The position numbers and the translations under genes are program-made. From positions 1 through 64,000 of the forward strand of contig JAIMBD010000006.1 of NCBI GenBank assembly GCA_023511625.1: DNA of 64,000 bases, given 5' to 3'. Origin of the DNA: Bacillota bacterium. Lineage in GTDB: Bacteria > Bacillota > Sulfobacillia > Sulfobacillales > Sulfobacillaceae. The notes beneath the pieces are model-generated. The model worked only from the letters and a program-made list of their open reading frames with translations. It searched no databases and was not told the origin of the DNA. Below are positions 19,587 to 23,632 of the stretch, one piece after another (the stretch's first letter is position 1; every line of letters begins with the position of its first letter).

Positions 19587-20057
19587 ATGGCCGAATACCA
19601 GGGGTATCTCAAGACCCACCAAGGACAGCGCTGGGCCATCGTGGTGAGCCGGTTCAATCAGCGCATCACCGACCGGTTGTTGGAAGGGGCCGTGGACCAG
19701 CTCATCCGGCACGGCGTGCCGGCGGAGTCGGTCGATATCTTCTGGGTTCCCGGCGCGTTTGAGATCGCGGGCATGGTCAAACGCCTCCTGCGCCGCCGCT
19801 ACGCCGCCATCATGGCCCTCGGGGCCATCATCCGGGGCGAGACGCCGCATTTCGAGTACATCGCCTCGGCCACAGCCGGCGCCTTGGCTGAGCTGGCGCG
19901 TAACGGCGAAGTGCCGGTGGTCTTCGGCGTGCTCACCTGCAACAGCGAGGCGGAGGCCGACGCCCGGTCCGACGGCAAGGCGGGAAACAAAGGGGCCGAG
20001 GCGGCCCTTGCGGCCATCGAAATGGCCGACCTCTACCGGCAGGTGGGCAACGACTAG
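19587..20057 (+). CDS. ribH: Lumazine synthase
   Basis: Condenses the pyrimidine with DHBP to 6,7-dimethyl-8-ribityllumazine. 156 residues with AIVVSRFNQRITDRLLEGA, VPGAFEIAGMVKRL, the phosphate-binding ALGAIIRGETPHFEY carrying the catalytic His, and VFGVLTCNSEAEADAR. The family has IRGxTPHFDYV and TxDxxEQA in the last two, so the C-terminal motif is somewhat divergent. GGAGGAGACGC precedes the ATG. Last gene of the operon; its end overlaps the convergent folK-birA gene by 4 bases. Confidence 0.95.
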   Translation: MAEYQGYLKTHQGQRWAIVVSRFNQRITDRLLEGAVDQLIRHGVPAESVDIFWVPGAFEIAGMVKRLLRRRYAAIMALGAIIRGETPHFEYIASATAGALAELARNGEVPVVFGVLTCNSEAEADARSDGKAGNKGAEAALAAIEMADLYRQVGND

Positions 20058-21274
20058 CCATCGCGATGGCGCAGGCTGACCTCCCCTGCAGTGACCCGCA
20101 ACCGGCGGCCGTCGGCGTTCACCCACAGCGCGCCTTCTCCATCGATCCCTTCGGCCCACCCGGCGATGGGCCCGCTCGGCCCGAGGACGGTCACCGGCCG
20201 GTTGAGCGTCACCGAATAGCGGCGCCACGCCTCCAGGATCTGGTCACGGCCCCCGCGCACCCACGCCTCGACCCACTGTTCGAGGGCCAAGGCCACTGCC
20301 GCCCACACCTCCTTGAGCGGGAGGCGGCGACCGGTAGCCACTTCCAGCGACGTCGCCTCGCCCCATTCGGGCAAGGCTTGGCCCTGCACGTTCAAGCCGA
20401 TGCCGGTGACGGCGAATCGGCCCGCCGTTTGAATCAGGATGCCCCCGACCTTGCGCCCGTCCAGCAAGACGTCGTTGGGCCACTTCAACCCCGGCGCAAG
20501 GGCGTACTGCGCCTCGATGGCCGACGCCACGGCCACCCCCGCCATCAGGCTCCACAACCCGGAAGCCGGCAGCGGATCGAGGGGGAGGAGAAAGGAGGTG
20601 GCGAGCCCCTCGCCCGGCTGTACCCCCCAGGATTTGCCCCGCCGGCCTCGTCCGTCGGTCTGAGCCTGGGCCACCACGGCCGCGCCGGCCGGCGCTCCGG
20701 CCGCCTGCCACTGGCGCAGCCGCTCGTTGGTCGAATCGAGGACTCGGTGGTATTCCAGCGTTTGACCCACCCACCGGGTCTTCAACGCCGCGCGCCAAGC
20801 CTCCGCCGTCGCCGGATCCGGTCCCCAGTGTCCCAACTGAATCACCGGTTGCCGCCACACCGCTTCGGCCACGGGTGGCCCCGGGAGTTCCACCCCGAGG
20901 TCTCGCAGCGGCTCGAGCACGAATCGCCGCTCGAACATCCGCGGGTGCGGAACCGTCAGGCGGGCATCAGAGAAGTGGCGTCCCCCGTACCACAACAGGT
21001 CGAGGTCGAGCGTCCGCGGGCCAAAGCGCACCGCGCGCACGCGCCCGCACGCGTTTTCGATGGCCTGCAACCGGTCGAGCAGACTCCAGGGGTCTAGGTC
21101 TGTCCGCCCCTCGACCACCAGGTTCAGATAGGGCGGTTGCGGCGGGCCGCCCACCGGCGCCGTCTCGTAGACGGCGGAATGGCGCAGGTCCAACAGCACC
21201 CGGCTCAGCGCGTCCACGGCCGCGCGCAGGTAGGCCAAGCGGTTGCCGAGGTTGGACCCCACGCCGATGTACAC
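20054..21274 (-). CDS. Fusion: HPPK (FolK) and biotin-protein ligase (BirA catalytic domain)
   Basis: A single uninterrupted 406-residue frame joins two enzymes. Residues ~1-128 are 6-hydroxymethyl-dihydropterin pyrophosphokinase: YIGVGSNLGNR, YETAPVGGPPQPPYLN, FGPRTLDLDLLWYG with the Mg-binding D90/D92, and VPHPRMFERRFVLEPL. After a linker (~130-172), residues ~173-405 are a biotin-protein ligase: DSTNERL, the biotinyl-AMP loop GRGRRGKSW (208-216), LKWPNDVLLDGRKVGGIL, GIGLNV and a C-terminal SH3-like domain. The winged-helix repressor domain of BirA is missing, so it should not bind DNA. Both sets of key residues are intact. It follows folB by 25 bases in a folP-folB-folK order; the start is GTG. 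A frameshift artefact is unlikely because no frame change is needed. Confidence 0.9.
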   Translation of the reverse strand: MYIGVGSNLGNRLAYLRAAVDALSRVLLDLRHSAVYETAPVGGPPQPPYLNLVVEGRTDLDPWSLLDRLQAIENACGRVRAVRFGPRTLDLDLLWYGGRHFSDARLTVPHPRMFERRFVLEPLRDLGVELPGPPVAEAVWRQPVIQLGHWGPDPATAEAWRAALKTRWVGQTLEYHRVLDSTNERLRQWQAAGAPAGAAVVAQAQTDGRGRRGKSWGVQPGEGLATSFLLPLDPLPASGLWSLMAGVAVASAIEAQYALAPGLKWPNDVLLDGRKVGGILIQTAGRFAVTGIGLNVQGQALPEWGEATSLEVATGRRLPLKEVWAAVALALEQWVEAWVRGGRDQILEAWRRYSVTLNRPVTVLGPSGPIAGWAEGIDGEGALWVNADGRRLRVTAGEVSLRHRDG

Positions 21275-21299: not shown

Positions 21300-21686
21300 T
21301 CAGAGCCGCCCCGGAGCGCTCGACGCCTGGCGCGCGCGGAAGATTTCCACCTCGGCCCAGTCGAGCGGCACCGCCAAAGGCGGCCCCCACTTGCGCACCC
21401 GCACCGTCACGGCCTTGACCCGCGGCAGGGCCAAGAGCTGCCGGGCGATGGCCTCTGCCAACGCTTCCAAGAGCGCCCGCGGCGGTCCTTCCATCACCGC
21501 CCGCACAGCCTCCACCACGCGCCCGTAGTCCACCGTGTCCTGGATGCGGTCGCTCATCCCCGCCGCGCCTAGGTCGAGACGTAGGCCCACGTCCACGCTG
21601 TAGGCCTGGGGGAACCGCTTTTCATGGGGATGCGCCCCGTGCCGGGCTTGAAACCGCAAGTTGGAGAGCCGAATCCAGTCAGCCAC
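21300..21686 (-). CDS. folB: Dihydroneopterin aldolase
   Basis: Converts dihydroneopterin to 6-hydroxymethyl-dihydropterin and glycolaldehyde. About 128 residues with the tunnelling fold: IRLSNLRFQARHGAHPHEK (family: ARHGVxxxEK), DTVDYGRVVEAV and LLEALAEAIARQLLAL. I place the start at the GTG at 21686, 8 bases inside the end of folP; the longer frame adds 18 residues from the folP shadow. It sits between folP and the folK-birA fusion in the classical folate order. Confidence 0.93.
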   Translation of the reverse strand: MADWIRLSNLRFQARHGAHPHEKRFPQAYSVDVGLRLDLGAAGMSDRIQDTVDYGRVVEAVRAVMEGPPRALLEALAEAIARQLLALPRVKAVTVRVRKWGPPLAVPLDWAEVEIFRARQASSAPGRL

Positions 21687-22509
21687 TGCGCACCCACCGA
21701 TCGGCCACTGCCAACGCCTCCCGCGCCAGACCCACCGCATGCACGCGCACCACGTCCGCCCCGGCCAAAGCGGCTAAGGCCGCGACAGCCGCCGTGGCCA
21801 CGTCGCGCGCCTCGGGCGGTCGGCCGCTCAACGCTCCCAAGAACCGTTTGCGGCTTGGCCCGATCAAAAGGCCGGCCCCGAGACCGGTAAATCGGGACAA
21901 GGCCCGCAGCACCGTCCAGTTGTCCTCGACCCCGTAGGCAAAGCCAAGGCCGGGGTCGACCAGGACCTGCGCCGGCGGGACTCCCCCCGCCGCAAGAGCC
22001 GCGACCGCCTGTCGCAAGGTCGCCACCATTTCCTCCAGGTTCACCTGCCCGGGGGCATAGGCCGGCTCGCGGTGAAACATCAACACGTACCCTGCCCCGT
22101 GCTCGGCCAAGAGGCGTCCCATGCTCTCGACGTGGGCCACGCCCCAAATGTCGTTGACGATGTCGGCGCCGGCCTCCAGCGCTCGGCGCGCCACCTCCGG
22201 CTTTTGGGTGTCCACTGAGATGGGGCCCTCCCAGCGCCGACGCACGGCGTACAACACCGGCTCAAGCCGTGCCCACTCTTCTTCTACCGAGATGGGCACA
22301 TACCCGGGCCGCGTCGACTCCGCGCCGAGGTCGATGGCATCGGCCCCCTCGGCCACCATCTGGTCGAATCGGCGCAGCGCCGCATCGGGATGGGTATGCA
22401 GTCCGCCGTCCGAGAACGAGTCCGGCGTCAGGTTGAGAATGCCCATCACGTAGGTACGCCCGCCCAAAAGCCAGCGCCCGCGCCTCCACTCAAAGTACCG
22501 CGCCGCCAC
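21679..22509 (-). CDS. folP: Dihydropteroate synthase
   Basis: Joins p-aminobenzoate to the pterin pyrophosphate. The 276-residue TIM barrel has VMGILNLTPDSFSDGG, AIDLGAESTRPG, ISVDTQKPEVA, NDIWG, VDPGLGF and the substrate loop GPSRKRFLG. One strand reads VLMFHRE where VLMHNR is common. The GTG start lies 20 bases inside the end of the DUF763 gene, so the two are coupled. Leads folP-folB-folK. Confidence 0.96.
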   Translation of the reverse strand: MAARYFEWRRGRWLLGGRTYVMGILNLTPDSFSDGGLHTHPDAALRRFDQMVAEGADAIDLGAESTRPGYVPISVEEEWARLEPVLYAVRRRWEGPISVDTQKPEVARRALEAGADIVNDIWGVAHVESMGRLLAEHGAGYVLMFHREPAYAPGQVNLEEMVATLRQAVAALAAGGVPPAQVLVDPGLGFAYGVEDNWTVLRALSRFTGLGAGLLIGPSRKRFLGALSGRPPEARDVATAAVAALAALAGADVVRVHAVGLAREALAVADRWVRSG

Positions 22510-23632
22510 GCGCCTGTCCCTCCTCCTCCCCCGACGCCTCGGGGCCGGCCTTTTGCCAGTGCGCCAACCGGCGCAAGGCCGCCAAACTCTCGCGCTGGCC
22601 GAGGCGCGCCCGCCGGAGGGCGCGCTCGAGCACTTCCAGATTGTGGTCGTAGTCCTCTCGCGCGACCGGAAAAGGATGGCCGTCCTTGCCGCCGTGGGCG
22701 AAACTGTAGCGGATGGGGTCCTGGCGCGAGGCCCGGACGCCGTAGATCACCTCCGCCACCATCACCAGCCCGCGCAAGGTCTTCGGGCCCACCCCTTCGC
22801 GCAGCAAGAGGTCGGCAAAGTCGCGGGGCGGCCGGTCGTACAGGCGGTAGAGCAGCCGGTCCCAATGTGCTTGTCCGGGAATGGCGTGCCCGCGCGGCAG
22901 GACCCACTCGGGCTCTTGGCGGGCCACCGCAGCCAAGGCCCGGGTCAGCTCAGACACCGGCACCTCGCGTGCCAAGGCCGTCGTCGCCTGCCGCGCGGCC
23001 GAAGACCCGTGAGCCGTCAGGTCCAGGACCGGCCCTGCCGCCTGGTCCCCGACGATGCCGCGATGGGGTTCCGACACCGGGTCCTGCACGGTTTCCGACC
23101 ACCAGTGATACCGCCTAGCCCACGGCCCCCCGTCGCTCTGCATGCCCTGCTGGACCACTGCCCACTGCCCTTGGGCCGTGAAGAAAAAGGCGTGGTGGTA
23201 CAGCTGATAGCCGTCTTGGACGGCCGCATTGTCCACCTTGGCCACCAGGCGCGACCACGTCACCAGGCGCTGGGCCATCTGGGGCAACCCCTCGCGCTCT
23301 CCTACGGCCTCGATCTCCCGGGGAGTCTCGCGCGAGGCGCGCCCCTTCCCCCCCGCCACAAACACGCCCAAGGCCCGGCCCCGCCGCCCGATCCCCTCTT
23401 TGAGGGCAGCGGTCACCACCGTGGTCAGTCCCGAGGAATGCCAATCAAAGCCCAACAGGGCCCCGAAGGCTTGAAACCATCCGGGGTCGGCCACCCGCGC
23501 CACGAGCTCCTCGGGTCCAAATTCGGTGACCACCGCTTCTGCCAAGGCTCCCGCCATGTCGCGCATCCGCTCGTACAGCCAAGGCGGACAGTGCCCTCCG
23601 TGCAGCGGCAATCGTGCCGTCCGACGCCACAT
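22490..23632 (-). CDS. DUF763 domain protein
   Basis: A 380-residue protein with the DUF763 hallmarks: LPLHGGHCPPWLYERM at the start, LGFDWHSSGLTTVVTAALKEG, KVDNAAVQDGYQLYHHAFFF, and a late helix-hairpin-helix-like stretch FADLLLREGVGPKTLRGLVMVAEVIYG. The family is common in archaea and thermophiles and often annotated only as conserved; the HhH-like part suggests nucleic acid binding. It has its own extended -10 promoter and a good AGGAGG before the ATG. It is translationally linked to folP by overlap, though a functional link to folate is not implied. Confidence 0.85.
   Translation of the reverse strand: MWRRTARLPLHGGHCPPWLYERMRDMAGALAEAVVTEFGPEELVARVADPGWFQAFGALLGFDWHSSGLTTVVTAALKEGIGRRGRALGVFVAGGKGRASRETPREIEAVGEREGLPQMAQRLVTWSRLVAKVDNAAVQDGYQLYHHAFFFTAQGQWAVVQQGMQSDGGPWARRYHWWSETVQDPVSEPHRGIVGDQAAGPVLDLTAHGSSAARQATTALAREVPVSELTRALAAVARQEPEWVLPRGHAIPGQAHWDRLLYRLYDRPPRDFADLLLREGVGPKTLRGLVMVAEVIYGVRASRQDPIRYSFAHGGKDGHPFPVAREDYDHNLEVLERALRRARLGQRESLAALRRLAHWQKAGPEASGEEEGQARGGAVL

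Follow-up and report, generated by a model that had tools for sequence, protein, structure and literature searches.

Why should an enzyme of folate synthesis and an enzyme of biotin attachment share one reading frame? The question is raised by a gene within a window of 64,000 nucleotides of DNA from a Bacillota bacterium, to whose first letter all coordinates below refer, and the original prediction saw no obvious reason for the two enzymes to be joined. That view does not hold when related genomes are considered, as folK and birA adjoin, and often overlap, in a conserved operon. We consider it very probable (roughly 0.88) that the gene encodes a bifunctional enzyme that arose from the fusion of these two adjacent operon genes.

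The fused gene and its domains

The fusion gene occupies positions 20054..21274 on the minus strand, with a GTG start codon at 21274-21272. From there it is a single stop-free reading frame of 406 codons (406 amino acids) that ends with TAG. An HPPK (FolK) domain (20897..21271, minus strand; amino acids 2-126; Pfam E 6e-38) is followed by the catalytic domain of a biotin-protein ligase (BPL), PF03099 or BPL_LplA_LipB (20408..20746, minus strand; amino acids 177-289; Pfam E 9e-16), with its GRGRRGKSW and KWPND motifs, and finally by a BPL_C domain (20069..20209, minus strand; amino acids 356-402; Pfam E 6e-9). The protein scores 133.7 bits with the NCBIfam model TIGR01498 for folK (curated cut-off 54.1), 130.2 bits with PF01288 (cut-off 25.7), whose full profile is covered, and 158 bits with the NCBIfam model TIGR00121 for birA_ligase (cut-off 83.1). 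No HTH family was matched in a Pfam search. Thus, Pfam and NCBIfam agree with the earlier description of a 406-residue frame with complete HPPK, BPL and C-terminal domains and no HTH, here assigned to the minus strand, and the motifs quoted in that description are all present.

The N-terminal half shares with stand-alone FolK/HPPK proteins (TIGR01498, PF01288; PDB 8sk1, 3qbc, 1hq2) the whole domain, the catalytic residues and a location downstream of folB within a folate operon, but it differs from them in running into the BPL without a stop. The C-terminal half has the characteristics of a group I BPL, namely a TIGR00121 match, GRGRxG, KWPND and BPL_C, and it lacks the N-terminal HTH that characterizes group II BPLs (BirA repressors). 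Like other HTH-less members of group I (TIGR00121; PDB 2deq, 9drk), it consists of catalytic and C-terminal domains, and structure comparison finds a similar fold (Z ~32) from about residue 156 of the model. It is distinguished from them by the HPPK at its N-terminus.

Both active sites were said to be intact, and the residues present support this assessment. The HPPK residues R78, R87, D90, D92, H110, R116 and F118 are invariant in all 24 members of an aligned set of FolK-BPL fusions, and the BPL catalytic residues are likewise invariant in this set. We take the first six of the HPPK residues to be equivalent to R82, R92, D95, D97, H115 and R121 of E. coli HPPK. A BPL loop at amino acids 212-222 (20600-20640, minus strand) reads GVQPGEG rather than the usual SPPGGG, and this divergence may weigh against an intact BPL half. 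A relative from the same genus also deviates at this loop (WMRPGDG).

Genome context

The host genome assembly comprises 2.59 Mb in 40 contigs and is 97% complete. A profile search revealed no second HPPK elsewhere in this genome, and the sole further match to PF03099 is a lipoyl-ligase-type protein (LplA-B_cat). Therefore, the fusion is the only folK and the only BPL of the genome, and the check for second copies that had been proposed rules out an additional folK or birA elsewhere. The genome also carries bioB and encodes a biotin carrier with an EAMKM motif, which is a potential substrate for the BPL.

Directly upstream of the fusion gene, across a gap of 25 nucleotides, lies folB for dihydroneopterin aldolase (21300..21740, minus strand), preceded in the same operon by folP for dihydropteroate synthase (21679..22509, minus strand). 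A gene for a DUF763 protein (22490-23632, minus strand) is located directly upstream of folP, which it overlaps by ~20 nucleotides, and it adjoins folP in the same-genus genome G009 as well. On the other side, ribH (19587..20057, plus strand) is a convergent neighbour. The TAG stop codons of ribH and of the fusion gene overlap in the palindrome CTAG at 20054-20057, and therefore there is no room for a terminator between the two genes.

The junction

The region between the two enzymes (20759..20896, minus strand; amino acids 127-172) includes the C-terminal tail of FolK, a strand at residues 144-148, the N-terminal helix of BirA at residues 154-162 and the segment RWVGQTLEY. The same-genus genome G009 carries a FolK-BPL frame that is likewise unbroken, with 58-59% protein identity overall. 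Between the two genomes the junction aligns without gaps over ~59 codons (amino acids 119 to 176), with dN 0.39 and dS 1.20, both near the values for the two enzyme halves, and thus with dN/dS ~0.33. This gapless alignment and the purifying selection indicate that the junction is translated and constrained. A chance open frame or an assembly error is ruled out by a junction that is conserved in a genome of the same genus. A like pattern of junction conservation is found in the other fused lineages.

The AlphaFold2 model of the fusion (pLDDT 94.4, pTM 0.89) has a junction pLDDT of ~95. The FolK tail includes the strand at 144-148, and the helix at 154-162 opens the BPL half, with only a few residues between them. 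The protein is thus predicted to consist of two known folds with a short ordered connection. The HPPK fold is backed by sequence, as the structure matches listed are BPLs.

Unfused relatives and origin of the fusion

In a comparison sample of 42 genomes from the order, which includes the family of the host, folK and birA are separate adjacent genes in most relatives. Several of these have a 4-nucleotide ATGA overlap between folK and birA, and others have slightly longer overlaps or short gaps. The arrangement folP-folB-folK-birA is an old operon order. The BirA HTH is also absent in the unfused relatives of the family. In two relatives (L086 and L087, from G026 and G025), folK and birA share one frame and are separated by a single TAA, so that the loss of this stop alone would fuse them. 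Neither half of the fusion was matched in G023, which is listed as 96% complete, and this could reflect an assembly gap or a real loss.

The junction of the fusion under study reads QPVIQLGHWGPD-PATAEAWRAALKTRWVGQTLEY. Its FolK tail, QPVIQLGHWGPD, resembles FolK tails of unfused relatives such as EQHIRCLGELGRWPDVVR, and its BirA head, AEAWRAALKTRWVGQ, resembles BirA heads such as MTAEEWTIELESQWMGRDLEY. Hand alignment to the overlap of folK stop and birA start in unfused relatives places the join at amino acids 153-156, DPAT (20807..20818, minus strand). In the same kind of alignment, the fusion gene is 5 nucleotides shorter than G013 at its overlap CGATGACC, and we infer that this shortening corresponds to the frame change that fusion requires. 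Essentially all of both proteins appears to be retained.

These observations suggest that a short overlap of folK stop and birA start in a folP-folB-folK-birA operon was lost through a small indel, which would have joined the two frames. The net loss of ~5 nucleotides fits one relative, and the exact indel is thus a reconstruction. The N-terminal half would act as a normal HPPK that pyrophosphorylates 6-hydroxymethyl-7,8-dihydropterin with ATP for folate synthesis. The C-terminal half would act as a normal group I BPL that makes biotinyl-AMP and moves biotin to carrier domains, such as that of the EAMKM carrier. B. subtilis BirA functions without its DNA-binding domain (PMC4016012), and this finding, together with the missing HTH in unfused relatives, leads us to expect a working HTH-less BPL half. 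We infer that both activities are present, that the fusion protein is stable and uncleaved, and that there is no catalytic coupling between its halves. The chief effect would be that two ATP-using cofactor enzymes are made at a fixed 1:1 ratio. The earlier proposal that fusion could tie the expression or the localisation of the two enzymes has to be amended as regards expression: adjacent and often overlapping genes in a conserved operon had their expression tied already before fusion. The whole looks like an ordinary fusion of operon neighbours, with no new mechanism.

Spread and number of fusion events

Within the host family, three genera carry in-frame FolK-BPL fusions; beyond it, such fusions occur in additional families of the same class and also in other classes of the phylum. 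All 24 collected fusions match both the folK and the birA_ligase models. The gene order ftsH-folP-folB-folK-birA-coaX-greA-lysS is largely conserved and is present, in part or whole, around other fusions. One of the 24, in G303 (L149), has a frame that stops early at ILMSGK without the BPL C-terminus, possibly owing to a frameshift or decay. Two contigs of a single genome, G343:C173 and G343:C88, carry one fusion each, which could indicate duplication or a mixed assembly.

There are three representatives, all from other families of the class, that keep the BirA HTH between FolK and BPL (G052, L123:1155-2672; G147, L125:1487-3067, minus strand; G138, L124:1808-3316). Pfam confirms the architecture HPPK-HTH_11-BPL-BPL_C in two of these. 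Judged by their domains, such three-part frames combine a folate enzyme with an entire BirA repressor/ligase of group II.

A single origin for all fusions is strongly rejected (AU p 3.5e-8 for the one-clade tree). For the host family, one origin is not rejected with folK and birA combined (AU p 0.052 with the family tree and 0.19 with a wider quick tree), and none of the bootstrap trees from these genes backs it. The rpoB tree rejects one clade of fusions in the family (p 0.014) and favours two origins. Counts cannot separate gain from loss, and so a single old fusion with later splits is not formally excluded for every group. Repeated fusion is favoured by the ATGA overlaps and the differing junction sequences.

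Relation to known fusions

A link between FolK and the protein encoded next to it is also seen in FolB-FolK, FolK-FolP and FolB-FolK-FolP fusions (PMC4224340, PMC2994781; PDB 2cg8, 7mpy, 2bmb). However, the partners in those proteins catalyse consecutive steps of one pathway, whereas here the partner is the biotin attachment enzyme and folB and folP are separate upstream genes. BPL is likewise fused to another cofactor enzyme in the BirA-type III pantothenate kinase fusion (NF009862), whose partner gene coaX neighbours it in related operons. In that protein the BPL carries CoaX at its C-terminal end instead of FolK at its N-terminal end, and the NF009862 model gives the present protein 51.9 bits against a cut-off of 761, through the BPL part only.

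No description of a FolK-BPL fusion was found in a literature search that lay outside subscription papers and protein-architecture databases. Biotin is unmentioned in the main text of two papers on folate-gene fusions, and HPPK is unmentioned in a survey of transcription-factor companion domains. The architecture is thus apparently undescribed in the literature searched, as the original prediction had supposed, but it is not unique, since several lineages of the phylum possess it, and its parts and way of joining are already well known. Recurrence in one phylum provides a natural set for examining how overlapping neighbours fuse, whether neutrally or under selection. It also carries two warnings: Rosetta Stone (fusion-based) inference may link enzymes that are joined merely through gene order, and automatic annotation may give just one of two functions.

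Selection, separate products or error

One possibility is that fusion was selected because the domains affect each other, for example with FolK as an N-terminal modulator that replaces the HTH, or with the folate or ATP state tuning biotinylation. The recurrence in several lineages, the definite arrangement of the halves predicted by AlphaFold2 (at the pTM given above), which would make coupling of both activities possible, and the HTH placed between FolK and BPL in two other families are all consistent with this proposal. However, adjacency and overlap by themselves make repeated fusion easy, B. subtilis BirA functions without its DNA-binding domain (PMC4016012), and the unfused family members already lack the HTH. 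Therefore, replacement of the HTH by FolK is unlikely in the host family. On balance, we regard selection for function as unlikely. The same holds for its fullest form, in which selection would repeatedly have favoured a two-headed enzyme whose HPPK and ligase halves, one modulating the other across a fixed domain interface, link folate synthesis to biotin-dependent carboxylation; we would give this about one chance in ten. If the domains were coupled, the result would be an unexpected metabolic link between folate and biotin.

A second possibility is that the fused frame is real and nevertheless yields two proteins, either because translation also starts internally, at a GTG or TTG around codons 144-169, or because a protease cuts the junction. 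Several GTG and TTG codons do occur within this part of the junction, and some separate BPL is possible. However, inspection of the junction by eye shows neither an ATG nor a clear Shine-Dalgarno sequence, and the junction is predicted to be ordered rather than a loose linker. Furthermore, because no stop follows FolK, a full-length product would persist despite internal initiation. Two separate proteins are thus quite improbable, and a bifunctional fusion protein is the preferred reading.

Finally, it is scarcely credible that a false indel from assembly or sequencing error joined separate overlapping folK and birA genes: most family members do have separate genes, and their 4-nucleotide overlaps mean that one such indel would suffice, but the independent G009 genome has the same gapless junction despite its divergence, and stop-free fusions recur in other lineages with a junction conserved in each.
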